A stretch of 64,000 bases of DNA from Candidatus Schekmanbacteria bacterium. Its GTDB lineage: Bacteria; Schekmanbacteria; GWA2-38-11; J061. The DNA lies in contig JACRJM010000004.1 of NCBI GenBank assembly GCA_016219965.1, forward strand, positions 186,001-250,000. Reading direction: 5' to 3'. A model generated the notes under the pieces. It did not search any database. It had not been told where the DNA came from and saw nothing but the letters and a program-made list of their open reading frames with translations. Of this stretch, positions 24,442 to 41,016 are shown piece after piece. The first letter of the stretch is position 1. Every line of letters begins with the position of its first letter. The position numbers and the translations under genes are program-made.

Positions 24442-24687
24442 ATGGAAAACAATAAAAAAATTATTTGTAAACCTGTTGATGAGGAATTAATGTTATACAA
24501 TGAATCAACGGGGGAAATACATTTTTTAAACAATTCTGCAAAACTTATTTGGGAAGCTTTTCAAGCAGGTAAGGGGGTGGGTGAAATTGAAGAGCTTATC
24601 AGAAAACAATTTGATACCTGCGAAAGTGTTGACATAAGAAAGCATATAGTTGATACTTTAAACCTATTTAAAAATAAAAGTATTTAA
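24442..24687 (+). CDS. PqqD-like protein (RiPP recognition element)
   Basis: The protein has 81 residues. The pattern LMLYNESTGEIHFLNNSAKLIWEAFQ, then a helix with VGEIEELIRKQFD and a final DIRKHIVDTLNLF helix, is the PqqD winged-helix fold. Such domains bind the leader peptide of a precursor and present it to a modifying enzyme. Here the gene stands 53 bases before a short Cys-containing peptide gene, consistent with that role. Ribosome-site sequence before the ATG is weak. Confidence 0.82.
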   Translation: MENNKKIICKPVDEELMLYNESTGEIHFLNNSAKLIWEAFQAGKGVGEIEELIRKQFDTCESVDIRKHIVDTLNLFKNKSI

Positions 24688-24740
24688 GAAAACAATTGTA
24701 TTAATGATAAGAAACAACGGACTAATGAGAGGAGATGATT

Positions 24741-24911
24741 ATGGAAAAGAAGAACAGCGAAAATCGTGAAAAGAAAACAGACAGGAAACCAAAGTATGTA
24801 CAGCCAGAGGTTATTACTTATACCAATGATGATGTAATCAAGCATCTTGGTCCTGCACAGGCATGCTCCACGACACCTTGCACAGTCAGCCCGAGCGGAA
24901 GCGGATTCTAA
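24741..24911 (+). CDS. Candidate RiPP precursor peptide
   Basis: The protein has 56 residues, starting eight bases after GAGGAG. Residues 1-20 are highly charged (Lys, Arg, Glu, Asn). Residues 21-38 (QPEVITYTNDDVIKHLGP) look like a leader segment for PqqD-type recognition. The tail ACSTTPCTVSPSGSGF holds two Cys, several Ser/Thr, Pro and Gly. There is no signal peptide. Size, composition and place directly after a PqqD-like gene, with a radical SAM/SPASM enzyme and an HPr-kinase-like gene downstream, make a ribosomally made modified peptide likely. The modification is unknown; Cys thioether links and Ser phosphorylation are possible. Confidence 0.7.
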   Translation: MEKKNSENREKKTDRKPKYVQPEVITYTNDDVIKHLGPAQACSTTPCTVSPSGSGF

Positions 24912-24984
24912 TTGTTACAAGCATAATGGAAAATTTTATTAATCGAGAGATTTAATTTTATAATTCAAAGGTGGAGGGGATTGT

Positions 24985-26706
24985 ATGCGTGGGAAAATTA
25001 AAGACAAATTGATGGGTTTTATTTCTATCTTTGCAATGTTATTAGCTATGTGTTTTATTATTTCAGTCCCGCAGGGGCATGCAGCATTATCATTTACAGA
25101 ACAGACAGATGCAGATTTTGATATTGATGAAGATGTGCTTGATGTAGCTATGGGTGACCTTGATGCTGACGGTCTCAATGATGTGGCAGCTATAGTAAAA
25201 ACCGGCAGTACATATAAAGTAAGAATATGGGAGAACACATCATCAGCCGGCAACGCTAGTTTCGCTGCTTCAAATGTGGTATATTCGTCAGCAAGCAGAG
25301 TGCTTAACAAGATACTCCTTGCAAACCTCAACAGCGCGACAAATGCTAACACCCAGAATGACATTATCGTATGTGCGAATTATGATGGCGCAACTTCAAA
25401 CCAGCAGATATTGATTTGGAAAAACCCTGGCAAAGATGCCGGTACTGTTTTTGCCGATAGCTGGAACACTGGTTCACCTAATGCAATGTTTGGAGGCGTG
25501 ACTTCTAATATTAATGATATTGCGGCTGGCGAACTGGATGGCGACAGCGGTGATAATTATGTTGATCTTGTTTCAGCAAATGGTGCTTCTGTTATTGCAA
25601 GACAGAATCCGTCTGACTCGGCTGCTGACCCCTATTCTGCAGGGAACTGGACAACATCAAGTACTCTTACAGGTTCTAAAAACAATGTAACGGCTGTTGC
25701 GATAGGCCATATTAACGGTACAAATGACAGTTACAAGGATGTTGTGATAGCTTATAATTCAGTCGCAACCACTGCCAATCTGGTAGCTTATAAGAATCCT
25801 ACTACCGGTGCGTATAGTGGAAACTGGACAACAGCTAAGACCTTTGCCGGCGTAGGCGATACAAGTACAAGATATACAAGCCTGGTTATTGCCAACCGTG
25901 AAGGAAGCGGAGATACAGATCCGGGTGATGGCGATATATTTACCACAAGAGGTCAGGCGGATACAGCCAGTCAGGAAAAAGCAGTAAAAGTCAGAAAGAA
26001 TCCGCACGGCAGCGACCCATTTACCGCCGGAACATGGACAACTGAAACTATTGTTTCAACAACTTCAACAAATGCTTATTTGTACAATGAAGTCGCTCTT
26101 GGTGATTTTACTCCTGACTCAAACAAGTATCCTGATGTAGTTTGGGGAGTTGATGCCAATGGAGATGCACTGGCAATTACTGAGGCGGAAGAATCAACAT
26201 CAGCATCAGCTTATGGTAATGCCTTTACACCGGGCGGCTTGAATGCTGTATCATGTAAGACCGTTGCAACTGGCTTTGTCGAAGAGGCTGTTAGCGGGAA
26301 TGGAAAAATAGACTTCATAGCCGGCTACACAAGCGATGGCGATGTAGGTCAGGAAATAAGAGTATGGAGGAACGATGCAGGTACGACAAATGCAACTCTT
26401 AAAGCCAAGTCATTCAAGGCAGAGAAAAAGGCGAAGAAAATAGCCCTCAGATGGACCACAGCTTCTGAGACTGACTCAGCATCTTTTACAGTACTCCGTT
26501 CTGAAGACAATGGGGCAACTTATGATGTGACGGTTGGTTCAGTTGATGCCAAGGGGCAGGGAGGTTCAGGAGCAAAATATAACCTCTCTGACAGCGATGT
26601 AACGCGCGGCAAAACATATAACTACAAACTCCAGGAAATAGATTTATCAAGCAACACAAGTGATCTTGCCACGCTGAAGGTCAAATACAAGAAAGCCAAG
26701 AAGTAA
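24985..26706 (+). CDS. Exported FG-GAP-like repeat protein
   Basis: The protein has 573 residues. The signal peptide has a hydrophobic core near residues 10-30, with cleavage likely after GHA. The body repeats FG-GAP/VCBS-like units such as MGDLDADGLNDVAAI, AGELDGDSGDNYVDLV and LGDFTPDSNKYPDVVWG, with acidic loops suited to calcium and a beta-propeller shape. The last 100 residues form a fibronectin-III-like domain (IALRWTTASETDSASFTVLR) ending in a Lys-rich tail. It is probably surface-exposed or secreted. A strong terminator follows, so it shares a transcript with the PqqD-like and precursor genes rather than with the radical SAM gene. Confidence 0.8.
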   Translation: MRGKIKDKLMGFISIFAMLLAMCFIISVPQGHAALSFTEQTDADFDIDEDVLDVAMGDLDADGLNDVAAIVKTGSTYKVRIWENTSSAGNASFAASNVVYSSASRVLNKILLANLNSATNANTQNDIIVCANYDGATSNQQILIWKNPGKDAGTVFADSWNTGSPNAMFGGVTSNINDIAAGELDGDSGDNYVDLVSANGASVIARQNPSDSAADPYSAGNWTTSSTLTGSKNNVTAVAIGHINGTNDSYKDVVIAYNSVATTANLVAYKNPTTGAYSGNWTTAKTFAGVGDTSTRYTSLVIANREGSGDTDPGDGDIFTTRGQADTASQEKAVKVRKNPHGSDPFTAGTWTTETIVSTTSTNAYLYNEVALGDFTPDSNKYPDVVWGVDANGDALAITEAEESTSASAYGNAFTPGGLNAVSCKTVATGFVEEAVSGNGKIDFIAGYTSDGDVGQEIRVWRNDAGTTNATLKAKSFKAEKKAKKIALRWTTASETDSASFTVLRSEDNGATYDVTVGSVDAKGQGGSGAKYNLSDSDVTRGKTYNYKLQEIDLSSNTSDLATLKVKYKKAKK

Positions 26707-26725
26707 GTTAGAAACGGTATTTTTC

Positions 26726-26757
26726 AGCCTCTCCTCGAATTCGGGGGGAGGCTTTTT
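26726..26757 (+). terminator. Intrinsic terminator after the FG-GAP-like gene
   Basis: AGCCTCTCC pairs with GGGGAGGCT (one G-U pair) and is followed by TTTTTTATTTTAT. It lies 20 bases after the stop. Confidence 0.8.
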
Positions 26758-26838
26758 TATTTTATAGGTTGTAAGACAATTGTTTTTTAAGTAAAAGTAA
26801 GTGTAAAACTAACCTGATATATTTCCGGGTATTTTGTT

Positions 26839-28200
26839 ATGGATAAAAATATTATAAATAATCTTCTCTGCTGGAAAAGGAAGAAACTAAAAAAAGCCTC
26901 ACTTTTCCTTCATCCTGATAAACCATATTTTTTTATAAGTGGTGCTGTCTTTGAAGAATTTCTGAAGAATTACAAATCATGTAAATCATACAGAGATTCT
27001 ATTTCCATTATTTCATCAAAATATGAAGTTTCACAAAAGACTGTAAGAGATGATATCAGCAAGGTAATAGAAAGAGTCGGTTCATTAGGCATTATGAAGG
27101 GGCAAGATATCAGACCTTTCCCTGATAATGAAAAGATAGACGGGCTTTTTCTTCACCTCACATCACGTTGTAATCTTACCTGTCCCCATTGTTACAGGGG
27201 AAAGCCGGGAAAAAGGACAGAGCTTTCCAGTAAAATAGTAGATAATGCCATAAACGAGCTTTCTCAAATAGAAGGTTCAACGCTTGTCTTAAGCGGTGGA
27301 GAACCATTGCTTTACAAAGGGTTTAACGGCATTTTAGAGTATGCGGCAGGGAGAATAAAGAATGTAAAGGTGCTGTCAAACGGGACTCTCATAGATGATA
27401 AAATTGCGCATCTTATAGCTGATACCCGCGCATTCATACAGGTAAGCCTTGATGGCGCATCAGAGAGAACAAATGATGAGGTCAGAGGCAAAGGTTCCTA
27501 TAAAAAGGTCATGAAGGGTCTGGAACGCTTAAGGAAAGCAGGGGCGATCAAAAGATGCAACCTGTCATTTACAATTATGAAGCATAATGCCGGAGAGATA
27601 GAAAAAATAATTGAGATGACAGAAAGTTTTGGCATCCCATCTGTACGTTTTCTTGTTCTAAGGAAGGAAGGCTGTGCAGTAAATAACTGGGAAAGGATTG
27701 GAAGCGGAATTACCACAGAGGAATATGAGGAAGTCTTTAAAAAACTTTTTTATCTGGGCGGCAATAATAACGGGAGTGTGAGCATTGAGGGAGGTCTTAG
27801 CGGATTCAATGTCAGTTTTTCAAATGATGAAGCCATGAATCCGCTTCTTTGTCCGGTCGGGAATTCACCTGCTGTTGATCTTGACGGGAAAGTCTATCCA
27901 TGCGTGCTTTTGATGCAGGAGGAATTTCTTATGGGAGATTTGAGTAAGGACACTTTAGAAGATATATGCAAAAGGCGGGAGGTATCAAAAATAAGGACAA
28001 AATGCGCTGAGAGGAAAAAGAGGGTGAATAAATGCAGAGCCTGTACATGGAACAACTTCTGTCAGTCGGCTTGCGCAGGGCTCGCGTATGAATGCCATGA
28101 CACAATATGGGAAACAGATAATTTTTGCAGTGTGAGAAAGAGATTGTATGACCATGTTTTTAATGAAATGGTAGACAGGGCGTCGGACAGCAGAAAATAA
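26839..28200 (+). CDS. PqqD-fused radical SAM/SPASM peptide-modifying enzyme
   Basis: The protein has 453 residues. Residues 20-90 resemble a PqqD-like recognition domain (FFISGAVFEEFLKN ... KYEVSQKTVRDDISKVIERV). The radical SAM core starts at about 103 with C111-NLT-C115-PH-C118 and LSGGEPL. The C-terminal SPASM domain supplies many cysteines (CPVGNSP, VYPC, KCAERKKRVNKCRACTWNNFC, ACAGLAYEC, C near the end), enough for two auxiliary 4Fe-4S clusters. This is the architecture of peptide maturases such as sactipeptide and thioether-forming enzymes. The 56-residue peptide at 24741 is the natural candidate substrate. Confidence 0.87.
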   Translation: MDKNIINNLLCWKRKKLKKASLFLHPDKPYFFISGAVFEEFLKNYKSCKSYRDSISIISSKYEVSQKTVRDDISKVIERVGSLGIMKGQDIRPFPDNEKIDGLFLHLTSRCNLTCPHCYRGKPGKRTELSSKIVDNAINELSQIEGSTLVLSGGEPLLYKGFNGILEYAAGRIKNVKVLSNGTLIDDKIAHLIADTRAFIQVSLDGASERTNDEVRGKGSYKKVMKGLERLRKAGAIKRCNLSFTIMKHNAGEIEKIIEMTESFGIPSVRFLVLRKEGCAVNNWERIGSGITTEEYEEVFKKLFYLGGNNNGSVSIEGGLSGFNVSFSNDEAMNPLLCPVGNSPAVDLDGKVYPCVLLMQEEFLMGDLSKDTLEDICKRREVSKIRTKCAERKKRVNKCRACTWNNFCQSACAGLAYECHDTIWETDNFCSVRKRLYDHVFNEMVDRASDSRK

Positions 28201-28211
28201 ATAATGAAGCT

Positions 28212-29309
28212 ATGGAAAAAATAATAAAAAAATACAGGATGATGGATGTGACCTTTTCGGTTGAATGCAATGAGCCGGGATTTTTCGACATGCTTGAGGT
28301 CCAGCCCTGGGTTGAAAAGGAGAACCGCAGCAATGGTGAGGCAGATATATCGGCAGAGATTGATTTTTCATCTATTTCATCTATCCCTTCGAGAATCAGG
28401 GTTGGAGAAAAGGTGTTCGACCTGATACCGGAAACAAGACATTACAATGCATATATACTTCTTATGGAAGAGGTTATAAACCGGAACAGACGTTATCTCA
28501 TGATTCATGGAGGAGCTGTTTACAAGGATGGTAATGCATATGCTTTTGTGGGCCCTTCGAATTCCGGAAAGAGCACTCTCCTATATGCTTTATCAAGAGA
28601 GGGTTTTAGCCTTGTCGCCGACGATCTTCTTCTTCTTGATATCAATGAGATGAATATTATCATTTTGAGAGAATCGATTGGCCTGAGGAGGGGAAGTCTC
28701 AAATTCTTCGGGATAGATGAGGAGGAGTGCAACAGTAAATATCCTTTTAAAGATGATACAAAGGCTTTTTTGAATGTTGAGCGTGAGCTTATTAATCATG
28801 ATGCTGATATCATTCTTAAAACTCTTTTTATTTTCAGCAATGTTTTTGAAGATGAAGGCAGGCATGTCGCTGACCTGTTCCTCAAATCATGGAATGATGC
28901 TTTTATTGAAAAGATTACTGAAATACCCGGGGTTAAGTTTATAGATAAATATACAAAAAATGGAGTTCCTGTGTGCAGGCTTTCTGTAATGGCTGATGCA
29001 TCTAACGAATTTCAGGTGGTGTGCAAGGATAACGAGAACCATATCTTTTACACAGAGGCTGTGAATGCAGGTGTAAATGACTTTGCAAATCCTCCTCTCA
29101 TAAAAAAAATATCAAAAAGGGACGCAGTTCTTGCCCTTATTAAAAATATGAGAAACCCAAGAATCTTACGGGACACCACAGGGAACAGATATCCCGAGCT
29201 TATGTTGAGGCTGGGCACTATTCTTGAAGGGGTTGATACCTATAGTTTTAAACCCGGTATCCTTGATAAAACTGTAAATGAGATTAAGAATATTATATGC
29301 GATGCTTAA
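28212..29309 (+). CDS. HPr-kinase-like protein
   Basis: The protein has 365 residues. HGGAVYKDGNAYAFVGPSNSGKST puts a Walker A at residues 114-122, then VADDLLLLD at 136-143 supplies the acidic residues of the HPr Ser kinase fold. The N-terminal 90 residues and the C-terminal 150 are family-specific. Stand-alone HPrK-like proteins occur beside PqqD-like genes in RiPP clusters; in some lasso peptide clusters a homologue phosphorylates a serine of the peptide. Starting 11 bases after the radical SAM stop, it is in the same operon. Kinase action on the Ser-containing tail of the candidate peptide is a hypothesis. Confidence 0.8.
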   Translation: MEKIIKKYRMMDVTFSVECNEPGFFDMLEVQPWVEKENRSNGEADISAEIDFSSISSIPSRIRVGEKVFDLIPETRHYNAYILLMEEVINRNRRYLMIHGGAVYKDGNAYAFVGPSNSGKSTLLYALSREGFSLVADDLLLLDINEMNIIILRESIGLRRGSLKFFGIDEEECNSKYPFKDDTKAFLNVERELINHDADIILKTLFIFSNVFEDEGRHVADLFLKSWNDAFIEKITEIPGVKFIDKYTKNGVPVCRLSVMADASNEFQVVCKDNENHIFYTEAVNAGVNDFANPPLIKKISKRDAVLALIKNMRNPRILRDTTGNRYPELMLRLGTILEGVDTYSFKPGILDKTVNEIKNIICDA

Positions 29310-32300
29310 AAAATATTTATTTGACTCTTGCCATATTATTAATTCAAACCTGTCTGTCTCATGCAGGAGTTCAAACATCACAACCCGGTGAATTGTCTCT
29401 TCATTTTAAAGCACCAGAATTCAAGATTAAGAGTTCAGACAACTCAGGCACAAACTATAAAAAACCGGTATTTAAAGGATGTACGGAAACCAGTATTCCC
29501 GGAGAACCTGCTATACCATTCGAAATCCATACATACGATATAAATGAATACAATGAGGCAAGTCTTAAAATAACAAGTGTAAGCACAGATGTTATAAAAG
29601 ATATAAGTATCCCTCCGTCAGACTCTCTTGAAATCCGGAATGGAAAAACTTTTTCCGTGCCATCACCGAAAAAGAGGGAAATTTATAGTGGTAAAGGCCT
29701 ATTCCCTTCTTCCCCTGTAGATTACGAAGTGGTGACAAAGCGCGGCAAAAACTATCTCATTATAAAATTCTATCCGCTCCAGTATAATCCTTCCTTATCT
29801 GAAGCAGTGATCAACAAATCTGTAAAAGTGGAAGTAAGGTTTTTTATAAAAAACAGACAGTCTGCAAATAAAACCAGTTCGTCTGCCAGCGGGAATGCAA
29901 ACCTTAAGATAGAGATAAAAGATGAAGGGATTTACAGAATAACTTATTCGGATATTTTAGCCGCCGGGATTGACCCTTCTGCTATTAATCCTGCAAATAT
30001 GAGGCTTATGAATAATGGTGTTGAGACGGCGATTATAGTTAACGGAGAAGGTGATGGAATATTTGATGATGGAGATGAAATACTTTTTTATGCCGCACCT
30101 TACAGAGATATATTTACAGAAAAAAACGCGTACTTCGTTGAGTTTTCAGACTCACCCGGAAAAAGGATTGAGGCTATAAATTATGAACCCGTTTCCGGAG
30201 GGTTAGATGAACCATTTTATTATAGTGAATTGAGATTTGAGAAGAACAATGTATACGAAATGCTTTTCCCTTTCGGAGAGGAAAAGGACCACTGGTTCTG
30301 GGGAAGAATTTATGCTCCGAAAAACCAGTCTTTAGGGACTATTACTATTCCCAATCCGTATACGGGTGCCAGTCAGCCTGACACTGAAATGAGGTTTTAT
30401 CTTCAGGGAAGAACTTCGACTGAAGTGGATCCCGATCATCATACACAGATATTTGTCAATGACACGCTGGCTAACGATTCCACATGGGATGGTGATATCC
30501 CTTATGTACAGGAAGCTATTATCTCTACAACATTGCTTTCAGCGACGGACTTTAACAATTCAGTTTCTGTAAATACCGTGGGAGATACCGGTTCTCTGGT
30601 TGACAGTATAGCTCTGGACTATTTTACAGTAAAATATCCAAGGGAATTCGTGGCGTTGGAAGGAATGTTGAAGTTTGATATAAAATCTGAAAGTACGGCT
30701 GTAAAAAAAATCGCTGTTTCTGATTTCCGGTATGGGAATATCCTTTTACTTGAGGTTACCGACCCTGAGAACCCTGTCAGTATAACTCATGCAGAGTCAG
30801 GGAGTGAAGGAAATTACAACCTCGAATTTGAAAAGGAGATTTCAGGTACTCTGTCATTTATATCTGCAGATTCAGATGCGGTTAAATCTCCATTAAGTGT
30901 TGTAAAATATGAACAGATGGGGGACCTTTCTTCGGTTGAAACAGAGGCTGACTATGTAGTCATAGCCCCCAAGGAGTTTGAGGAAGCGATAACACCGCTT
31001 ATCGATGATAGAGAGGCAGGGGGGCTTAAAAGCAAATTTGTCGATGTTGAAGAGATATATAATCAGTTCAGCTACGGCCGTTTTACTCCGGTGGCAATCA
31101 AGGATTTCCTGAAGACGGCTTATCAGAGCTGGAAGCTTAAGCCTGAGTATGTCCTTATCGTTGGTGATGCAAATATTGATTACAAGGACTATTTCAATAC
31201 GGGGAAGAAGAACGATGTACCAACATATCCGGCAAATACCCCCTTTGGCGAGGCTGTAACTGACAACTGGTTTGTCTGCGTAGATGGCGATGATCCTGTC
31301 CCTGATATAAACATAGGAAGAATCCCGGCATCTTCCGTTGGTGAGGTCCAGTCGGTAGTTAATAAGATTAAAGCTTATGAGGCAAACACTGACCATTCGT
31401 GGTGGAAAAAAGTTGTTTTTGTAGCTGATGATTCACAGGAATTTGAAAGCCATTCAGATGACTACGCAGAACAGTTTAACAGTGAAGGGTACACAGTATA
31501 TAAAATTTATCAGTCTGCCTTTGAAAGTGCGGGCGGGGCAACAGACAGCATTATAAATAAGCTTAATAATGGTGCGGTTATAGCTAATTATACGGGGCAT
31601 GGTGCTCTTGATATATGGGGAGGAGGGGATATCCTGTTTAATAATGATGATGTTGATTCTCTTGCTGCTAATGATAAATTATCCCTCATTCTGACATTGG
31701 ACTGCCTTAACGGTTTTTTTGCACTGGTACCTCCTCCGCATTCTTCTACTTTGCTTTCTCTTTCTGAGAAGTTCCTGCTCACAGATGGGAAGGGAGCAGT
31801 ATCAACTTTCAGTCCTTCAGGACTTGGGTACTCGTCAGATCACAAGGTTGTTGCCCAAAGTTTTTTTTCAGAGTTTCTTGATAACAATATAACAAGGATT
31901 GGGAAACTTGCAGACGACTCCAGATTTGATGCGTATCAGAATGGGATCCCTGATTACCTTATAAATACATTTGTCCTGCTCGGTGATCCGGCACTTAAAC
32001 TTAAAACAGAGAAGGCCTCAAATCAGCCTCCTGTTGCAGGCATAACAATCACATCAGGAGAGCAGATAATCTATGATGGCTCGACTATGAACCTTTATGT
32101 GGGTGTTAGCGAAGCGACCGTTCCCGTAAGCTTCTCTGCGTCGAGAAGCTACGACTCTGATGGAAGCATAGTAAAATATTATTGGTACGTAAATGGTGAT
32201 AAGATCAGCGAAGAGAATGATTATGCCGGTGATTTCGGAATTGGTGTTTATACGATAACACTTGAAGTTGAGGACAACAGCAAAGAAAGCGTAGTAACAA

Positions 32301-33157
32301 ATGCCTATTTCAATATAGCCCTGAATGAGACTTCGGATATTCTGCCTACTGCTGGAATTACAGCGAGCACGGATGAACAGACTGTTTATGAAGGGGGAGA
32401 ATTGAACATTACGGTTCCTGCCGGGGAGGAAGAGGTGGTAACGTTTACTGCCTCAAGAAGCTTTGATACGGACGGGACAATAATAACATATATCTGGAAA
32501 GTAGATGATATTCAAATCAGCGAAGAAGAGGTTGTTACCCATTCTTTCGGAGCGGGAAGCTACAATGCAACACTTGAGGTTGTTGATAATGATGACCAGA
32601 GCAGCACAGCGGGAGTTACTATCATTGTTTCAGAACTTGTTGACAAAACTGTCAGCATAACCAGTGTTGATAAGAGCGTGTTATATTATGACAAAAATGT
32701 CTTTGTTGGAGGAAATAATTTCGGAAGTACAGGAGGGAAAATTCTTCTTATCAGAAAAGACCAGACTATGGAGGCTGATATAATAAAATGGGAAAATAGC
32801 GCAATAACATTCAAAGTCCCATGGGGCCTGAAATATAATAAGTATGAGATTACTGCGGAAAATAGCGGCGGTATAAGGTCTGAAGGGAATCCGCTGCTTC
32901 CTTTTAAGAAACAAAAGCCGGCAATATCGAGACTTTCAAAGAGGAATGTCCAGGCAGGAGGCAAGATAATTATTTATGGAAATCATTTCGGCCCATCCGG
33001 GGGAAAATTATTTATAAATGGTTCAAAGATCAGTTCTTCTGCATGGTCAGACAAGTCAATTACATTTAAAGTACCGAAAAAAATTTCCGGCGAATCGGTA
33101 GTGCAGGTGAAAACAATGTATGGGAAGAGCAATAAGAAGAAATTAAAAATAGATTAA
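29297..33157 (+). CDS. Exported C25 (gingipain-like) cysteine protease with PKD and TIG domains
   Basis: The protein has 1286 residues. The signal peptide (LTLAILLIQTCLSHA) is followed by a prodomain-like region to about 200. The C25 peptidase domain (about 550-900) has catalytic His768 in YTGHG and Cys803 in LTLDCLNGFF. Two PKD-like domains follow (SYDSDGSIVKYYWYV and SFDTDGTIITYIWKV), then two IPT/TIG-like domains (FVGGNNFGSTGGKILL, IIYGNHFGPSGGKLF). C25 enzymes include gingipains and the PorU sortase of Bacteroidota. It overlaps the HPrK-like gene by 13 bases. Peptide maturation, surface-protein processing and scavenging are all possible. Confidence 0.88.
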   Translation: MRCLKNIYLTLAILLIQTCLSHAGVQTSQPGELSLHFKAPEFKIKSSDNSGTNYKKPVFKGCTETSIPGEPAIPFEIHTYDINEYNEASLKITSVSTDVIKDISIPPSDSLEIRNGKTFSVPSPKKREIYSGKGLFPSSPVDYEVVTKRGKNYLIIKFYPLQYNPSLSEAVINKSVKVEVRFFIKNRQSANKTSSSASGNANLKIEIKDEGIYRITYSDILAAGIDPSAINPANMRLMNNGVETAIIVNGEGDGIFDDGDEILFYAAPYRDIFTEKNAYFVEFSDSPGKRIEAINYEPVSGGLDEPFYYSELRFEKNNVYEMLFPFGEEKDHWFWGRIYAPKNQSLGTITIPNPYTGASQPDTEMRFYLQGRTSTEVDPDHHTQIFVNDTLANDSTWDGDIPYVQEAIISTTLLSATDFNNSVSVNTVGDTGSLVDSIALDYFTVKYPREFVALEGMLKFDIKSESTAVKKIAVSDFRYGNILLLEVTDPENPVSITHAESGSEGNYNLEFEKEISGTLSFISADSDAVKSPLSVVKYEQMGDLSSVETEADYVVIAPKEFEEAITPLIDDREAGGLKSKFVDVEEIYNQFSYGRFTPVAIKDFLKTAYQSWKLKPEYVLIVGDANIDYKDYFNTGKKNDVPTYPANTPFGEAVTDNWFVCVDGDDPVPDINIGRIPASSVGEVQSVVNKIKAYEANTDHSWWKKVVFVADDSQEFESHSDDYAEQFNSEGYTVYKIYQSAFESAGGATDSIINKLNNGAVIANYTGHGALDIWGGGDILFNNDDVDSLAANDKLSLILTLDCLNGFFALVPPPHSSTLLSLSEKFLLTDGKGAVSTFSPSGLGYSSDHKVVAQSFFSEFLDNNITRIGKLADDSRFDAYQNGIPDYLINTFVLLGDPALKLKTEKASNQPPVAGITITSGEQIIYDGSTMNLYVGVSEATVPVSFSASRSYDSDGSIVKYYWYVNGDKISEENDYAGDFGIGVYTITLEVEDNSKESVVTNAYFNIALNETSDILPTAGITASTDEQTVYEGGELNITVPAGEEEVVTFTASRSFDTDGTIITYIWKVDDIQISEEEVVTHSFGAGSYNATLEVVDNDDQSSTAGVTIIVSELVDKTVSITSVDKSVLYYDKNVFVGGNNFGSTGGKILLIRKDQTMEADIIKWENSAITFKVPWGLKYNKYEITAENSGGIRSEGNPLLPFKKQKPAISRLSKRNVQAGGKIIIYGNHFGPSGGKLFINGSKISSSAWSDKSITFKVPKKISGESVVQVKTMYGKSNKKKLKID

Positions 33158-33159
33158 AT

Positions 33160-33690
33160 ATGAAAGATAAGATTATCTCCGCCTATCAACAAATTGGCAA
33201 AGAGTTACAGATAAGGGTGGAAGGTACGAGTATGACACCTTTAATTCAGAATAAATCAATCGTCTTTGCAGATATATCGGCGAAGATGTTTCCGGTTTCA
33301 GGTGAAATATGTCTTTTCAAGAATTCCGAAGGATATGTTGTCCATAGGGCCATCAGGATATTTGGAAGAAGAGATGGATCTGGGGAGATTATTGAAAAAG
33401 GGGATGCAAGCCTTAATTTTACATTGAGGGAGTCATGCGATCTGGTTGGGATTGTAACTTCAGTGAGCAATCAGGGATGCAATATCAGATTTGACAATCC
33501 TTTAAATAGATATTTAAACAGAACGTATGGATTGTACTGGAAAATTGTATATATGCTTAACAAGATAATTATCAACATTACAGATGGAGAACAAAACAGA
33601 CTGCAGCGCTTTATAATAAATGTATTTACGCGGACTGTCATGGCAGTTTTCAGGACGATGACATTGCTTACCATAAAAGAAAGTAATTAA
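33160..33690 (+). CDS. S24/S26-type peptidase (SipW-like active site)
   Basis: The protein has 176 residues. The motifs are EGTSMTP with Ser24, YVVHRA with His62 and EKGDAS with Asp82. This Ser-His-Asp set is that of SipW/ER-type signal peptidases rather than the Ser-Lys of LepB. There is no clear N-terminal membrane anchor. Small S24/S26 proteins of this type are frequent next to PqqD-like and HPrK-like genes. It begins two bases after the C25 stop, so it is translationally linked. The cleaved substrate could be the precursor peptide or a cluster export protein; this is inferred from context. Confidence 0.75.
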   Translation: MKDKIISAYQQIGKELQIRVEGTSMTPLIQNKSIVFADISAKMFPVSGEICLFKNSEGYVVHRAIRIFGRRDGSGEIIEKGDASLNFTLRESCDLVGIVTSVSNQGCNIRFDNPLNRYLNRTYGLYWKIVYMLNKIIINITDGEQNRLQRFIINVFTRTVMAVFRTMTLLTIKESN

Positions 33691-33705: not shown

Positions 33706-34842
33706 GTGAAAGATAAAATAAGAAAAGCGACTTTTTATAGTTTTTGGCAGCTTGCAGGTTTTTCCCTTATAATCTTTATAACCATTCCCTACTTTCCTGT
33801 TTTATGGAAATCTCTTACAGCTTCACAGCAGCACCTAGCCGTTAATTTTCTTTATTCCGGCGCCGGTGGAACGGGCTTATACTTGATTTATTGCATATTT
33901 AGGCTAGGTGAACAAAAATATCTGCGTCTCTTAATGCTCGCATTTCTTTCATATTTTTATGCACTGATGTTTACATCATTAAGCCAGTTTCCAGCTGAAA
34001 AATTTCACCTTATCGAATATGGGATACTCACGTTTCTTGCATACCGTTATTTTGAAATCAAATCTAATACCCAGAATACCCAGATGGCATTCTTAAAAAG
34101 CCTTTCTCTCGTATCATGTATAAGTATAGGGGACGAATTTGCACAATGGATCAGTCCGAACAGAGTCGGCACAATAGAGGATATAATAGTAAACATAAAA
34201 AGCTCCCTGCTGGCACTTGCAGGAATAGCCTTGATTATGCCTGTTAATAAACTCAGGAAAAGGCCTGCCAGAAAAGACATTGTAGAGCTTACATATTATT
34301 TTGTAGTTCTTATATTATTCATAACTGCTTTTATTACGCTAGTTCACGAGTTTGGGTATGAGATCAGAGACAGGAATTATTATTTTTACTCTTCTTTCCC
34401 ATCTGAGAAGCTCCAGGAACTTGCCGTGTATGTTAAGGATAACAAAAAGGATTTCAGCAACCTGGATATCCTTAAAGCTTTAAGAGGGGAGAAATCTGAT
34501 AATATGAATGGGGGACAAAAGCAACTTTATAAGTTTGTCAGGGAAGCTTCATTCCATATTTATGAAAGGGATAACGCAGTAGAAAAAAAGAGATATGATA
34601 AAGCGATAAATGAAAGCGCAATAATTGACAAATATTATTATCCTGTCTATGCAGTTGTGAAATCAAGATTAAGAATGGAAAAGCCCATGCCGATTTCGGG
34701 AGCCTCGGACAGTGAAATTTATAAAAGCCCTGTCAAGAGCGATTTAATCTACCAGATTACAAAAAAGCATTTTTATGTTGGTTCAGCTTGCTTGATTGTT
34801 TTTTTATTCATGGCAAATGTCTATCTCAGAAGGCAGCTTTAA
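33706..34842 (+). CDS. VanZ-like membrane protein
   Basis: The protein has 378 residues and a GTG start. The N-terminal half has about five to six membrane helices and the VanZ-like signature HLIEYGILTFLAYR ... GDEFAQWISPNRVGTIEDIIVN. A loop domain follows (about 230-350, charged and helical), and the chain ends with a final helix (HFYVGSACLIVFLFMANVYL). VanZ-like proteins occur in glycan and exopolysaccharide loci with no firm biochemical role. It follows the S26-type gene by 15 bases, so transcription probably runs on from the RiPP-like locus. Confidence 0.75.
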   Translation: MKDKIRKATFYSFWQLAGFSLIIFITIPYFPVLWKSLTASQQHLAVNFLYSGAGGTGLYLIYCIFRLGEQKYLRLLMLAFLSYFYALMFTSLSQFPAEKFHLIEYGILTFLAYRYFEIKSNTQNTQMAFLKSLSLVSCISIGDEFAQWISPNRVGTIEDIIVNIKSSLLALAGIALIMPVNKLRKRPARKDIVELTYYFVVLILFITAFITLVHEFGYEIRDRNYYFYSSFPSEKLQELAVYVKDNKKDFSNLDILKALRGEKSDNMNGGQKQLYKFVREASFHIYERDNAVEKKRYDKAINESAIIDKYYYPVYAVVKSRLRMEKPMPISGASDSEIYKSPVKSDLIYQITKKHFYVGSACLIVFLFMANVYLRRQL

Positions 34843-34844
34843 AT

Positions 34845-36011
34845 TTGAGAAAAAAACTTCGCATATCAGTAGTGGGGATCAATGGGATACCGGCAAGGCA
34901 CGGCGGATTTGAAACATGTGTGGATAATGTGGCTACAAGACACTCATCTGCCGGGCTTCAGGTTACAGTCTACTGCAGAAGCAGGAATGTGTCATTAAGC
35001 GATAAATACTATTGCGGGATCAAACTGATTAAGCTTCAATCAATCGGACACAAAAGCCTTGAGACTATCAGCCATACTTTTTTATCTCTGCTCCATATGC
35101 TTTTTCAGAGAAAGGACATTATCCACGTCTATGGCGTCGGTAATTCAATTTTTATTCCTTTCCTGAAGATACTTGGACAGAAGGTAGTGACGTCAGTTGA
35201 TTCCCTTGACTGGGAAAGGGAGAAGTGGGGGAAGTTTGCTAAATGGTTTCTCTTTAACTCAGCAAAAATAGCTGTAACATTCTCTGACGCTGTCATAGTC
35301 GATTCAAAGTCTGTGCAGGAATATTATAAGAGGGTTTTCAAGACAGAAACAGTATATATACCATACGGGGCGGATATGGGAAGAAATGCTGATGAAGGTG
35401 TGTTGAAAAAATACGGACTGACAAAGGACAATTACATACTGTTTGTCGGCAGGCTTATTCCTGAAAAAGGGGTACACAGGCTTATTGACTCCTATGTAAA
35501 ATTGGATACTAAAAAGGAACTCGTCATAATCGGGGGAGACTGGTTTACGACTGAATACATCGAAACGCTTAAACAGAAAGCTGCGGGGAGTAATGTCAGG
35601 TTTCTTGGGTTTGTCTATGGCGATGAGTGCAGGGCTGTATATTCCGGAGCATATCTCTATGTGCAGCCCTCTGAGGTGGATGGTACTTCTCCTGCACTTC
35701 TCACGGCTATGGGAACAGGGAACTGCGTTGTTGTAAACTCAATAAAGGAAAATCTTGAAACTGTTGGAGAGTCCGGCCTTAATTATGAGTGTAACAGCGC
35801 AGATTCACTTAGAGAGAGGCTTCAATATTTACTGGATAATAAACTAATTGTGGATGAATATAGGCAAAAGGCTCTGGATAGAATCCAAACAATGTATAGC
35901 TGGGACAGGGTGGCTGATTCAATTGCGGCTCTCTATGAAGATGTACTTTCCGGCAAAAAGCCGAGAATTGATATTTATGAAAACCCCACGAGCATTAATT
36001 CTCATCGATAG
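34845..36011 (+). CDS. Glycosyltransferase, DUF1972/GT4 type
   Basis: It begins RKKLRISVVGINGIPARHGGF, the DUF1972 N-terminus of GT4 glycosyltransferases, and has VGRLIPEKGVHRLI and EVDGTSPALLTAMGTG in the C-terminal nucleotide-sugar-binding lobe. I chose the TTG at 34845, two bases after the preceding stop, since the domain starts there. An ATG at 34788 would overlap the VanZ-like gene by 55 bases and add unrelated sequence. Related enzymes transfer rhamnose or other sugars in capsule and O-antigen synthesis. Sugar and acceptor are unknown. Confidence 0.85.
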   Translation: MRKKLRISVVGINGIPARHGGFETCVDNVATRHSSAGLQVTVYCRSRNVSLSDKYYCGIKLIKLQSIGHKSLETISHTFLSLLHMLFQRKDIIHVYGVGNSIFIPFLKILGQKVVTSVDSLDWEREKWGKFAKWFLFNSAKIAVTFSDAVIVDSKSVQEYYKRVFKTETVYIPYGADMGRNADEGVLKKYGLTKDNYILFVGRLIPEKGVHRLIDSYVKLDTKKELVIIGGDWFTTEYIETLKQKAAGSNVRFLGFVYGDECRAVYSGAYLYVQPSEVDGTSPALLTAMGTGNCVVVNSIKENLETVGESGLNYECNSADSLRERLQYLLDNKLIVDEYRQKALDRIQTMYSWDRVADSIAALYEDVLSGKKPRIDIYENPTSINSHR

Positions 36012-36072
36012 ATAGAAAAATGAGATAGAAAAATGAGAAAGAATGTGTGGATGAGTAAAAATCTCTAAGGAG

Positions 36073-37101
36073 TTGAATCAGACATTGCAGCTGAAAAACA
36101 GATTACTCAGGAAGGCAACCTTAATTGCCACAGGAAATAAAAAAATAAGAAATTTAATTGAACGTTCACAGATTTCCATGGATTTCCCTGCTCATCTTTT
36201 TATTGAACCCACAAACATCTGCAATCTGAAATGCAGGATGTGTCCGCAGGCAGAACCTTCTGACGTCAAAAGGGGATTAATGGATTTTCCTATTTTTAAA
36301 AAAGTCATTGATGAAAGCGTGACTCATGGAAGGAGGATGTCAATTTTTTTTCATAAGGACGGTGAACCTCTGATACATCCTCAATTGTTCGATATGATAA
36401 GCTATGCAACTGAAAAGAAAGCTTCCTATAGGACACATCTCAGCACTAATGCGCAGATACTTGATGAAGAGAAATCAGAGAAACTTGTCCTTTCAGGAAT
36501 TGACAGTGTAATTATAAACATAGATGCCAGCAAAGAGGATACCTACAGGCTTATAAAAGGGAAGAACGGGCTTTCTGAGGTTGAAAAAAATGTTAAATAC
36601 CTTATAAAACAGAGGAACAAATCCGGTAAAGCCAAGCCGATGATCAGGGTTAAAATAATATCTGTTGAGGAAAACAGAGATGAAATACCGGATTTCAGAA
36701 GAAAATGGAAAAGTGTAGCTGACGAAGTTGTCGTAAGCAGTGAATTTCTGTGGCCTGGAGGAAAAACAGATACAGCAGATGGGACTACTAGTTCTATTGA
36801 CAGGTACCCATGTATAAGTTTATGGCTTTCAATGGTAATAAATTGGGATGGAAGTGTTTCCGCCTGCTGTATTGACTATTACCATAAGGAGTTAATCGGA
36901 GACATTAAAAAAACTACCCTTGAAAAGATATGGAGGGGGGCGCCACTGCAAAAACTCAGGAGAGGACATCTTCTTGGGCAATATGAAAAAACAGGAATAT
37001 GCTTTAAATGCAGGGGGCTGTGGGTAAGGGATACATTAGGAATTGATTCGGAAAAGTGGCTAATAACAAAAATGAAGGCAGGAGGTCTGTGGGATGAATA
37101 A
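36073..37101 (+). CDS. Radical SAM/SPASM-like protein in the glycan locus
   Basis: The protein has about 342 residues. The cluster motif is C50-NLK-C54-RM-C57, with HKDGEPLIHPQL in place of the usual GGEP segment. C-terminal cysteines (SACCIDYY, GICFKCRGLW) suggest an auxiliary cluster of the SPASM type. The start is uncertain: AAGGAG abuts the TTG at 36073, and TTG 36085 is an alternative. Such enzymes sit in many polysaccharide clusters and may modify a sugar or lipid rather than a peptide. It overlaps the next gene by eight bases. Confidence 0.82.
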   Translation: MNQTLQLKNRLLRKATLIATGNKKIRNLIERSQISMDFPAHLFIEPTNICNLKCRMCPQAEPSDVKRGLMDFPIFKKVIDESVTHGRRMSIFFHKDGEPLIHPQLFDMISYATEKKASYRTHLSTNAQILDEEKSEKLVLSGIDSVIINIDASKEDTYRLIKGKNGLSEVEKNVKYLIKQRNKSGKAKPMIRVKIISVEENRDEIPDFRRKWKSVADEVVVSSEFLWPGGKTDTADGTTSSIDRYPCISLWLSMVINWDGSVSACCIDYYHKELIGDIKKTTLEKIWRGAPLQKLRRGHLLGQYEKTGICFKCRGLWVRDTLGIDSEKWLITKMKAGGLWDE

Positions 37102-38995
37102 TTCCGTTAAAAATTATCGTATAGAGTTGAAAAATTTTGTAAAAAAACTTTTTTTACTTGGCTTTATTGACGGGATTGTGGTCCTTGTAGGGACTATACT
37201 AATTAATGATCTGATATCAAATGCGCTGGACGGACTTGTCCTTTCTTTTTATCTTATGATACCCTGTATGGTAGCTGTTGTAGCAGTGGGTTCAGTTATA
37301 TTTACAGTCGCATATTTTATTGCATCACGCTTTAAGCACTCAATCATCAATGACGGAGTTCTTGACCGCTATACATTCATAATCTTCTTCTCTGTATTTA
37401 TCTTTCAGTTTTTTATTAACAGGTTTGTTAGTACTTATATGTTTTATTACATCTATCCTTTTGTAGACAGCTATACAAAAATGGCAATGCTAATGTGGGG
37501 ATCCGTACTAATAATGGTGGCTGGAGCTTTTCTCATTGGATGGCTAACAGCAAAGATTTATCTCTATTCTTATGACAGGGTTAGCCGGCTGAAAAAGCCT
37601 TTGTTTATTGCAGCAGTCATGCTCATTATATATGTGTCATCGTGGTTGTTTCCGGTAATTTATAACAAGTCGAAGCTTGTTATGAATCTTGCATCTAAAC
37701 AGACAGTAAAAGCCGGGAACTATGCTGAAGGGAATAAGGTGTTCCTCATAGGAGTTGACGGAGCGACATGGGATATAATTGATCCGATGATAAAGCGAGG
37801 GGAGCTTAAAAACTTCAAACAACTTATTGACAACGGTGTAAGGGGAGATATGAAAACATTCATTCCCACTGAATCTCCGATACTCTGGACATCCATTGCG
37901 ACAGGTAAAAAGCCGGAGAAGCATGGGATACAATCTTTTATACTTGTGTCTTTTGATGGAGTAAGTCAGCCGATACAGAATTTCCTGCAAAGGGGTATGT
38001 TTGATAGGCTTAAATTCATGGCGTTTACTGGGCTTTCATTTGAATTTCCTATTACCACTTATTACAGGAGAACTAATGCCATCTGGAATATATTGAGCAA
38101 ATATGGAAAGAAAGTAATAGTTGTTAACTGGTTTCCTTCATATCCGGTTGAGCAGGTAAATGGTTCTATGGTTTCTGACAAATTGTTGAGAGCTATTAAG
38201 TACGAAAGAGGTCCTAATCCTTCTGAATATGCTAAGTATCTGGTTTATCCAAGCACTCTTTGCAAAGAAATAGATGCGAATATGAAAAATTATGATACTC
38301 CGAAATTTTATAAGAAAAAGAATCTTACAGACTTTGTCAGATATACTTATGAATCAGAAAATATTTATTTTAATATTTCAATGAAACTGCTTGAGGAATC
38401 TCCTGATACAAATTTTTTTACTGTATATTTCCGCGGAACGGATGATCTTGAGCATAAATACTGGAAGTATATTGATAAAGAAAAATTTCCGTGGGTTACT
38501 GATGAGGAAAGGCAACAATTCGGGAATGTAATTAATGATTATTATGCACAAGTTGATAAATACATTGGAAAGATATTGGAGAAGGCTGATGAGAATACGA
38601 CGGTAATAGTTATATCAGATCACGGGCATAAGCCTGTCTTCAACTATTTTAATGATTATGCCGCTCAATATGGAGCACATGGTAATGGACCTGACGCTAT
38701 ATTTATCGCCTCTGGGAAAAACATCTCTGGAGGATTTACAATCCATAAGCCAACGTTATACGATATAACACCGACTATCCTTTATCTTCTTGGATTACCT
38801 GCGGGATCTGACATGGATGGAAGAGTATTGACTGAGATAATTGACAGAAATTCTTTGTCAGCAAATCCTCCGGCATCAATATCTTCTTATGATATGGGCG
38901 ATATATCACAAGCTGGAATAGAAAAAGGAAATAAAGAGATGATGAAAGATGAAGGACTTATGAATAAATTGAAGGCACTCGGATATATAAATTAA
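37094..38995 (+). CDS. Membrane alkaline-phosphatase-superfamily phosphodiesterase
   Basis: The protein has 633 residues. About five membrane helices in residues 15-195 are followed by a type I phosphodiesterase/nucleotide pyrophosphatase domain. Metal and catalytic residues are visible: FLIGVDGATWD (Asp), PTESPILWTS (nucleophile Thr/Ser region), RGTDDLEHKYW (Asp, His), VISDHGHK (Asp, His) and QYGAHGNGPD (His). Homologues in glycan loci act outside the inner membrane on phospho-groups of glycolipids or polymers. The last 40 residues form a helical tail. It is coupled to the preceding radical SAM gene. Confidence 0.85.
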   Translation: MNNSVKNYRIELKNFVKKLFLLGFIDGIVVLVGTILINDLISNALDGLVLSFYLMIPCMVAVVAVGSVIFTVAYFIASRFKHSIINDGVLDRYTFIIFFSVFIFQFFINRFVSTYMFYYIYPFVDSYTKMAMLMWGSVLIMVAGAFLIGWLTAKIYLYSYDRVSRLKKPLFIAAVMLIIYVSSWLFPVIYNKSKLVMNLASKQTVKAGNYAEGNKVFLIGVDGATWDIIDPMIKRGELKNFKQLIDNGVRGDMKTFIPTESPILWTSIATGKKPEKHGIQSFILVSFDGVSQPIQNFLQRGMFDRLKFMAFTGLSFEFPITTYYRRTNAIWNILSKYGKKVIVVNWFPSYPVEQVNGSMVSDKLLRAIKYERGPNPSEYAKYLVYPSTLCKEIDANMKNYDTPKFYKKKNLTDFVRYTYESENIYFNISMKLLEESPDTNFFTVYFRGTDDLEHKYWKYIDKEKFPWVTDEERQQFGNVINDYYAQVDKYIGKILEKADENTTVIVISDHGHKPVFNYFNDYAAQYGAHGNGPDAIFIASGKNISGGFTIHKPTLYDITPTILYLLGLPAGSDMDGRVLTEIIDRNSLSANPPASISSYDMGDISQAGIEKGNKEMMKDEGLMNKLKALGYIN

Positions 38996-39004
38996 CTATC
39001 CCAT

Positions 39005-40339
39005 ATGAAAGAAATAACGGTAGTAATAGGAGCGGGATTAACAGGACTTAGCACTGCCTATCACATGGAGAGTAAATATGCTGCTTCCGGTAACAATTAC
39101 TCTCGTAAATGTTTTGTAATAGAGAAAGAAGCAACAGCTGGAGGGCTATGCCGCAGTTTCTATCATAAAGGATTTACCTTTGATACAGGCGGCCATTTTC
39201 TGCACACAGAAGATAATTATGTAAAGAGCCTTGTAGAGAAACTGCTCAAAGGGAACAGTAAGCTTGTAAAAAGAAATTCAAAAATATTTATTAAAGACAG
39301 ATTTATCCCTTATCCATTTCAGGGAAATCTTTATTACCTGCCTGATGAAATGAAAGTTGAATGCCTTTCAGAATATATCAAAGCTTATGTGTCAAATAAC
39401 AACGACAAAGCTGCAAATGGCAAAAACTTTAGGGAATGGATGAGAAGCAATTTCGGAGATGGAATTGCAAAATATTTTATGGAGCCTTTTAACAGAAAGC
39501 TCCTGAAGGTCTCTCTTGAAGAAATAAGTGCAGAGGCGATGAAAAGATATATCCCTGTTCCTGATATGAATGAAATAGTTAGCGGAGCGCTCTGTAAAAG
39601 CAGAAAGGCATTCGGATATAACCATGAATTTTATTATCCTGCAAAAAACGGGATTCAGAGTTTTGTGAATTCATTTAAGGCAGGGTTAAAGAATATAATC
39701 ACTTCTGCAGAAGTGATTAAAATAAATTCAAAGAAAAAAAATCTTAAATTAAATACCGGTCCTGAGATAAGTTATGATAACCTTGTATCAACTATGCCTC
39801 TCTCGGAGCTTGTTAAATGCATTTCTGATGCACCGGAGATTGTAAAAAAAGCAGGGAATAATCTCAGATGCAATTCTCTGCTCATTGTAAATGTCGGTTT
39901 CAGGGGGAAGCCTGCCGGCAAAATGCACTGGATATACCTGCCTGAGGAAGAATATGAATGTTACAGGATCGGTTTTTATTCAGAGGTTGCCGGCTCAATG
40001 GCTCCGAAGGGCATGACATCAGCTTATGTTGAATTCTCTGTCAATCGGGGAAAAGAGAAGACAGATATAAAAGGGCTGGAGAAAAAAGCCATTGAATGTC
40101 TGAAAAAAATGAAATTCATAAAAGGGAAGAAGGACATACTTAGCTGTCAAAGCGTATTTGTAGATTATGGGTATGTAATCTTTGATTCAAATAGAGAGCA
40201 GTGCGTTGGGACGATTAAAGACTACCTTAATAATAACGGCATATATTCTGAAGGCAGATATGGGGGCTGGGAATATTCAACAATGTCAGATGCCATAATC
40301 AGCGGAAAAAAAATGGCTGAAAAAATATTGATGGGATAA
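39005..40339 (+). CDS. FAD-dependent UDP-galactopyranose-mutase-like / amine-oxidase-like protein
   Basis: The protein has 444 residues. The FAD-binding Rossmann start is VVIGAGLTGLSTAYHME, then EKEATAGGLCRSF and FDTGGHFLH, shared by UDP-galactopyranose mutases and protoporphyrinogen-oxidase-like proteins. PFNRKLLKVSLEEIS and YYPAKNGIQSF match the former's layout. It probably remodels a nucleotide sugar or glycan intermediate. It is nine bases after the phosphodiesterase gene. A second protein of the same broad group is at 42206. Activity is not provable from sequence alone. Confidence 0.82.
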   Translation: MKEITVVIGAGLTGLSTAYHMESKYAASGNNYSRKCFVIEKEATAGGLCRSFYHKGFTFDTGGHFLHTEDNYVKSLVEKLLKGNSKLVKRNSKIFIKDRFIPYPFQGNLYYLPDEMKVECLSEYIKAYVSNNNDKAANGKNFREWMRSNFGDGIAKYFMEPFNRKLLKVSLEEISAEAMKRYIPVPDMNEIVSGALCKSRKAFGYNHEFYYPAKNGIQSFVNSFKAGLKNIITSAEVIKINSKKKNLKLNTGPEISYDNLVSTMPLSELVKCISDAPEIVKKAGNNLRCNSLLIVNVGFRGKPAGKMHWIYLPEEEYECYRIGFYSEVAGSMAPKGMTSAYVEFSVNRGKEKTDIKGLEKKAIECLKKMKFIKGKKDILSCQSVFVDYGYVIFDSNREQCVGTIKDYLNNNGIYSEGRYGGWEYSTMSDAIISGKKMAEKILMG

Positions 40340-40350
40340 AGTCTTATCAA

Positions 40351-41016
40351 ATGGAAAATATCTTAATTATAGGCGCATCGGGACATGCCAAAGTCATAAT
40401 AGACATAGTGGAGAGGGAAAATCGTTTCAGGATAGCTGGTCTGATTGAAAATACATTTAAAAAGCCTGGTTTAAAATGCTGCGGACACGAAATTATCGGT
40501 ACCGAAGAAAGAATCCCTGTCATAATGAAAGAACTTAAAGTTTCTGGAGGAATAGTCGCAATTGGTGATAATTGGAACAGAGCCAATGTGGCTAAGGCAA
40601 TAATGAAAGTAGCCCCTGGTTTCAGATTTGTATCTGCTGTCCATCCATCAGCACAGATTGCACGAGATGTGACTATTGGAGATGGAACTGTTATTATGGC
40701 TGGGACCGTTATAAATACCGCGACTAAAATAGGCAGGTTTTGTATAATAAACACAAATGCGTCTGTTGATCATGATTGCATTATGGAGGATTATTCCAGT
40801 ATTGCGCCCGGAGCTGCTATAGGAGGTACGGTTACGATCGGTGCTTTTTCGGCAATTTCCATCGGGGCAAATATTGTTCATAAGGTAAAAATAGGGGAGC
40901 ACACTGTTGTAGGTGCAGGCGCAACTGTTTTAAAGGATATCCCTCCTTATGCAGTGACCTACGGCTCGCCGGCTAAGGTAATAAGAGGGAGAAAAGCAGG
41001 AGATAATTATTTATGA
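40351..41016 (+). CDS. NeuD/PglD-type sugar O- or N-acyltransferase
   Basis: The protein has 221 residues. The N-terminus ILIIGASGHAKVIIDIVER is the PglD/NeuD nucleotide-sugar-binding fold. The C-terminal half is a left-handed beta-helix of hexapeptide repeats (VTIGDGTVIMAGTVIN, IGAFSAISIGANI) with His in ASVDHDC as likely catalytic base. It acylates an amino-sugar or sialic-acid-like sugar using acyl-CoA. Its stop overlaps the aminotransferase start by four bases, which supports action on the same nucleotide-sugar. Confidence 0.9.
   Translation: MENILIIGASGHAKVIIDIVERENRFRIAGLIENTFKKPGLKCCGHEIIGTEERIPVIMKELKVSGGIVAIGDNWNRANVAKAIMKVAPGFRFVSAVHPSAQIARDVTIGDGTVIMAGTVINTATKIGRFCIINTNASVDHDCIMEDYSSIAPGAAIGGTVTIGAFSAISIGANIVHKVKIGEHTVVGAGATVLKDIPPYAVTYGSPAKVIRGRKAGDNYL

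Follow-up and report, generated by a model that had tools for sequence, protein, structure and literature searches.

A candidate radical SAM peptide-maturation operon associated with exported HGP-domain proteins

Introduction

Seven genes from Candidatus Schekmanbacteria bacterium probably constitute a RiPP-type maturation operon dedicated to surface proteins that share a C-terminal domain, which we name HGP; this is the reading that we favour on balance, including the chemistry and processing proposed below. The genes occupy positions 24442–33690 of the stretch of 64,000 nucleotides analysed here, hereafter referred to as the window. Comparison of sequences across genomes establishes a precursor peptide family, its dependence on the enzyme family, intact catalytic residues in the enzymes and the pairing of peptide genes with HGP-protein genes. 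In at least four phyla, peptide genes adjoin genes for large exported proteins with this domain, which suggests that the peptide is a part or a processing tag of surface proteins and not a free antibiotic. Described RiPPs mostly act in free form as bioactive molecules, or as cofactors. The precursor family described here is encoded by scattered, nearly identical genes, up to fifteen of them, which lie next to genes for large exported proteins of differing folds but with one C-terminal domain. If the link is functional, RiPP chemistry would be joined to bacterial surface-protein sorting, fields that are unconnected in any paper that we found, and covalent attachment of the peptide to surface proteins would be categorically new. 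A literature search, which covered few subscription papers, returned no paper joining radical SAM or PqqD proteins with C25 proteases, HprK or surface sorting. The parts are of known kinds, and we classify their combination as a variant of radical SAM RiPP systems that is set apart by unmatched family models and by the literature. Since few genes and short peptides are involved, the system is directly testable.

Results

Organization of the locus

The ORF list places seven ORFs on the + strand at the coordinates given in the initial annotation, and bears out its description of genes running in one direction with the last four overlapping or nearly touching (Table 1). The ORFs of the HPrK-like and C25 proteins overlap by 13 bases (29297–29309), and a GAGGAG site precedes the peptide ATG at 24741. 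This arrangement is not a product of chance, because the same gene set recurs in other phyla.

Table 1. Features of the candidate maturation operon in the window.
Feature	Position	Strand	Evidence
Stand-alone PqqD-like RRE protein, 81 aa	24442..24687	+	Pfam PqqD 26.9 bits
Precursor peptide gene, 56 aa: MEKKNSENREKKTDRKPKYVQPEVITYTNDDVIKHLGPAQACSTTPCTVSPSGSGF	24741..24911	+	Homologues adjoin same enzyme in other phyla
Exported FG-GAP-like partner protein, C-terminal HGP domain, Lys-rich tail	24985..26706	+	Signal-peptide-like N-terminus
HGP domain, about 99 aa	26392..26682	+	Profile A4, E 1.1e-35
Radical SAM/SPASM enzyme with PqqD-like (RRE) N-terminus	26839..28200	+	Pfam, homologue alignments
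HPr-kinase-like ATP-binding protein	28212..29309	+	Walker A; profile match to HPrK structures
Exported C25 (gingipain/PorU-like) cysteine protease, PKD + TIG	29297..33157	+	Pfam 281 bits
S26/SipW-type serine protease, candidate leader peptidase	33160..33690	+	Ser24, His62, Asp82 invariant

Directly after the S26-type gene, at 33706–43618, lie VanZ-like, glycosyltransferase, second radical SAM/SPASM, phosphodiesterase-like, amine oxidase-like and aminotransferase genes. This set resembles a polysaccharide cluster. None of the other loci showed it next to the operon, and its VanZ, glycosyltransferase and second radical SAM genes (33706 on) were not counted as operon members.

The genome of the window holds other loci of related make-up. 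About 54 kb before the window (contig C4; L014, 7346–10127), a row of genes encodes a radical SAM enzyme, a PqqD protein, a protein of 306 aa at the HPrK position and an S26-type protease; it includes no C25 gene and follows a 1009-aa ORF. Two more loci (L015, 6178–8517, on C14; L016, 7614–10212, on C15) each combine PqqD and a radical SAM enzyme with a further protein that occupies the HPrK position and whose similarity to HPrK is shown for L015 only; L016 contains an additional 67-aa ORF with two Cys.

The modification enzymes

An RRE is found twice in the operon, as a discrete PqqD protein and as the fused N-terminus of the radical SAM enzyme. The discrete protein exceeds the Pfam cut-off of 23.4 bits and has homologues in the loci of genomes G037, G180, G305, G138, G391 and G399. 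That the radical SAM enzyme has a PqqD-like N-terminus of its own, as first noticed in the initial annotation, is confirmed by profile–profile alignment with hhalign (probability 97%, E 2e-11). The enzyme scores 88 bits for Radical_SAM and 37 bits for SPASM in Pfam. Its CxxxCxxC motif (C111, C115, C118) and seven SPASM cysteines are invariant in three homologues; the cysteines for the SAM cluster and for the auxiliary clusters are thus intact, as in sactipeptide and ranthipeptide enzymes. Against CteB (5wgg), a thioether enzyme, its profile gives an alignment that spans residues 30–423 and takes in the RRE region. CteB-type enzymes form thioether links. Among the NCBIfam maturase models that it matches, the enzyme reaches at best 131.6 bits (cut-off 265), and its scores for StsB, PapB and SkfB are all far below the cut-offs. 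CteB has been termed a sactionine-forming enzyme (PMC7876137). A scan of genome contigs matched only distant radical SAM enzymes, in Desulfobacula-type loci that have none of the other genes, and these matches were rejected.

The HPrK-like protein matches the NCBIfam model HprK_rel_A weakly (44 bits, cut-off 200), and a profile of five HPrK-like sequences matches solved HPr kinases with E of about 1e-5. The protein contains a Walker A motif, GPSNSGKST, followed by VADD, and the Gly-Lys of the motif is invariant in five homologues. An HPr kinase-like fold is therefore indicated by Walker A, by an acidic pair (DD, DE or EE) and by homology to solved HPrK. HPrK homologues are known to phosphorylate Ser in lasso precursors (PMC8498205).

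The C25 protein matches Pfam Peptidase_C25 and also carries Propeptide_C25, PKD and TIG domains; its catalytic dyad, His768 and Cys803, is invariant in four homologues. It resembles the sortase PorU, and scores 283.9 bits with the PorU model, which is below the 420 cut-off. PorU, another member of family C25, removes a C-terminal domain and adds a surface anchor (PMC8545088). The S26-type protein scores below curated cut-offs, and its Ser24, His62 and Asp82 are invariant in four homologues. Single-sequence AlphaFold models of the HPrK-like and exported proteins had pLDDT values of 34 and 31, respectively, and were not used for fold searches.

Recurrence of the operon

Phyla are given here as assigned in the genome set, in which several genomes are fragmented assemblies. 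Searches with the enzyme matched G002, which has the same gene order, and G037, which belongs to another phylum and has the order PqqD, radical SAM, HPrK, C25 and S26. A three-enzyme profile detects the enzyme in seven of 386 related genomes, and targeted searches in three small phyla detected it in 4/4, 1/4 and 5/9 genomes. The PqqD/RRE, radical SAM/SPASM, HPr-kinase-like, C25 and S26-type genes are found again, intact, in four or more lineages at the level of phyla; almost all loci include HPrK, and C25 is present on every contig of sufficient length. In G399, S26 lies between the radical SAM and HPrK genes. When the neighbourhoods of the loci were compared, neither a transporter gene nor an immunity gene was found to recur beside the operons.

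The precursor peptide family

The peptide of the window contains the motif Y19-x-x-P22 in its leader and the cysteines C42 and C47 in its core, and Y, P and both Cys are invariant in an alignment of nine peptides. Across the family the Y-x-x-P leader motif is common to all members and the two core cysteines to nearly all. Y-x-x-P has been described as the recognition motif of PqqD-, FusE-, McjB- and StsC-type RREs (PMC12710340). The family scans matched no family model to the peptide.

Among the 386 related genomes, the nine-peptide profile matches eight, namely the seven enzyme carriers and G156, where a weak match to a frame of 34 aa among unrelated genes was rejected as chance; a weak second match in the window's genome (E 0.09) was dropped, as it lies inside a 480-aa frame. 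In held-out genomes (two further small phyla) the peptide was found in four of five enzyme carriers (G391, G393, G394 and G399), and it adjoins the enzyme in G393 (two loci), G394 and G399, all outside the set used for building the profile. In the fifth carrier, G395, the enzyme and C25 are present and the profile search did not detect a peptide. Profile searches also found a peptide without a matching radical SAM enzyme in G398; the gene (L116, 8546–8713) has a short HGP frame nearby and is either an orphan or the result of an assembly gap. A peptide homologue lies immediately upstream of the enzyme in G002, and further homologues are present in G138 and G380. In total, 11 of 12 enzyme-bearing genomes have peptides. 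The initial annotation had named a lack of peptide homologues beside this enzyme family as the outcome that would overturn its proposal, and the opposite is observed. Its RiPP-type reading stands in that a genuine family of short precursors with a conserved leader is encoded next to this enzyme family. The role of the exported protein as a conserved partner was unforeseen, as were the scattering of peptide–partner pairs in some genomes, the lack of a recurring transporter gene and the likeness of the C25 enzyme to PorU.

In the phylum of G037, the peptide profile has 5 matches in G037, 7 in G180, 15 in G305 and 2 in G391, which are scattered; the five copies of G037 are remote from the enzyme. 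The cores, of TGFGG type, are nearly invariant within this one phylum despite the scattering of the genes. For 26 paralogues, pN/pS is 0.39 and pN is lower than pS in 325 of 325 pairs; these are therefore real peptide genes under purifying selection. One of the two Cys is missing from a small number of copies in G305 and G180, which may be decaying.

Pairing with HGP-domain proteins

The HGP domain comprises about 99 residues, is FnIII-like by eye and has the consensus ...W.T..E.DN.GF..YR ... Y.YYLVDIDT.G.WT.HGP. None of the Pfam, NCBIfam and PDB entries searched contains it, and family scans gave only weak, chance-level matches. The exported protein of the window, which ends in this domain, had been described as FG-GAP-like; the repeats are visible, but the protein contains no Pfam family. 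Its homologue in the G002 locus is 24.6% identical over 529 aa, and an exported HGP-domain protein is present in nearly all other loci. The exported protein is part of the system, a conserved partner and not a bystander.

In the phylum of G037, all 27 peptide genes with readable surroundings (30 raw rows, duplicate rows removed) have a same-strand HGP-protein gene within 440 bp, and 25 within 300 bp; the chance expectation, generously estimated, is about 2% per gene. The HGP neighbours are found both upstream (22) and downstream (13) of the peptide gene in the raw list, which includes duplicates, and most loci have one peptide per exported partner. The profile was built from neighbours in this phylum together with the window and G002 proteins. 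Since HGP was thus defined from peptide neighbours, the fair test of the pairing is in other lineages. HGP proteins are found in the peptide loci outside the profile in G138 (1e-35), G380 (1e-25), G399 (1e-29), G393 (6e-30 and 6e-24) and G394 (2e-25), with a weak match in the G398 peptide locus (2e-7). In G002, G380 and one G393 locus the HGP gene is 2.5–3.7 kb from the peptide, in the same gene run. Apart from the HGP domain, the partners vary widely and include beta-helix, propeller-like, papain-like and C25-like proteins.

HGP domains are also common without the peptide system, with 35 in G047 and 21 in G156; the domain itself is therefore not diagnostic, and the company of the peptide is. 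The window's genome has 27 HGP genes and one peptide, and 26 of the 27 have no adjoining peptide. Either a single peptide source acts in trans on many HGP proteins in this genome, or the peptide is used by its paired protein alone.

Each lineage has its own kind of tail after the HGP domain, which peptide-adjacent and non-adjacent proteins have in common (L072–L156 and the window). The tails are Lys-rich and short in G000 (the window's genome) and G002, 15–40 residues long and often Arg-ending in G037, G180 and G305, and Trp/Tyr-rich in G380 and G393. They look like lineage-specific sorting signals. An Arg/Lys C-terminus is present in 23 of 29 peptide-adjacent and 10 of 22 non-adjacent HGP proteins of one phylum, a difference (p 0.02) that is too weak, and depends too much on common ancestry, to support an argument. 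Elsewhere in the window's genome (L137; contig C3, 42000–60000), a tandem array of seven large HGP genes with basic, Lys-ending tails was found, in which no peptide gene was detected.

Discussion

In the mechanism that we propose, the stand-alone PqqD protein and the RRE of the enzyme would bind the Y-x-x-P leader, and the radical SAM/SPASM enzyme would install a Cys-derived cross-link, probably a thioether, in the two-Cys core. The HPrK-like enzyme may phosphorylate Ser/Thr of the peptide, and the S26-type protease is the candidate for removal of the leader. The mature peptide would then work with, or become part of, the exported proteins with C-terminal HGP, by attachment or in a complex, and the exported PorU-like C25 protease may process these proteins at the cell surface. 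A further step, put forward only tentatively, is that the C25 protein acts as a PorU-like transpeptidase that covalently joins the radical-SAM-modified and perhaps phosphorylated peptide to HGP proteins; the RiPP would then anchor or tag many different surface proteins, and scattered gene pairs would be its source.

Another reading keeps the cross-linked peptide with the exported protein but as a small non-covalent subunit or cofactor, as the thioether-linked QhpC is. The same logic operates in qhp, in which QhpD cross-links a small subunit whose gene accompanies those of exported partners (PMC7876137), and the ratio of one peptide to one exported partner seen in most loci is in keeping with it. 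The dedicated ABC transporter of qhp is, however, absent here, the description of qhp in PMC7876137 includes no HPrK-like gene, and partners that range from beta-helix to C25-like proteins argue for a general tag. We therefore regard a QhpC-like subunit as unlikely, if somewhat less so than the remaining alternatives.

PqqD, SPASM, a short Cys peptide and a protease are also the standard parts of a conventional RiPP, which would be cross-linked, cleaved by C25 or S26 as the leader protease and set free to act as a bacteriocin or signal. A free antibiotic is argued against by the lack of a recurring transporter or immunity gene and by cores that are nearly invariant within a phylum though the genes are scattered, with 15 matches in a single genome; moreover, the scattered copies all adjoin an HGP surface-protein gene and not RiPP enzymes. 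The conserved partner, the scattered pairs, the missing transporter and the PorU-like C25 together make a secreted free peptide less likely than a peptide tied to surface proteins, and we consider the conventional reading rather improbable. A role of the peptide in the regulation or expression of the surface-protein genes next to it, with the radical SAM set acting on something else, would suit its constant position close to HGP genes on the same strand, but is very improbable given HGP genes on both sides of it, the purifying selection on the peptide, the tracking of peptide and enzyme across phyla and the RRE-type motif in the leader.

Comparison with known systems

The operon preferred here, one that matures a peptide for HGP-domain surface proteins, shares features with several described systems. 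Like the sactipeptide and ranthipeptide systems (CteB, SkfB, AlbA), it has a SPASM enzyme with a fused RRE, a short leader–core peptide and core Cys. It differs in that the precursors are scattered and paired with HGP proteins, that HPrK, C25 and S26 are present, that there is no transporter and that the enzyme stays below the cut-offs of the NCBIfam maturase models that it matches.

In the SynChlorMet cassette, PqqD-like, HprK-like and SPASM proteins occur together, as reflected in part in the names of the NCBIfam models. The SynChlorMet/HPr-rel-A models (TIGR04248–04251, TIGR04352/04353) give weak matches here, all of which fall far short of their cut-offs: ScmC, 12.1 of 125 bits; ScmD, 18.9 of 100; ScmE and ScmF, 115 and 107 of 400; HprK_rel_A, 44 of 200; PqqD_rel_X, 25.8 of 35. 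The present operon has one SPASM enzyme in place of ScmE and ScmF, with C25, S26 and the HGP protein in addition.

Paeninodin-type lasso peptides likewise combine a Y-x-x-P leader and a discrete RRE (PMC12710340) with an HPrK homologue that phosphorylates Ser (PMC8498205). Here, a radical SAM enzyme takes the place of the lasso cyclase, and there is no transporter; no asparagine-synthetase-like cyclase was found among the cluster proteins scanned with Pfam, and none is apparent among the window ORFs read.

With the PorU system the operon shares a C25 enzyme with a PorU-like N-terminal region (284 bits) and candidate substrates with an FnIII-like C-terminal domain. In contrast to PorU, the enzyme remains below the 420-bit cut-off, carries PKD and TIG domains and is encoded with peptide-maturation genes, a combination that appears in no paper found by our literature search.

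In qhp, the radical SAM enzyme QhpD cross-links QhpC, the small subunit of quinohemoprotein amine dehydrogenase, which is encoded with large exported partners; a protease removes a 28-residue leader and a dedicated ABC transporter is present (PMC7876137). A small peptide encoded with large exported proteins, a radical SAM enzyme and a leader protease, here a candidate, are common to both systems. The present operon differs from qhp in having no heme or quinone subunits and no ABC transporter, in the two Cys of the peptide core and in the diversity of its partners, which are defined by their C-terminal domain.
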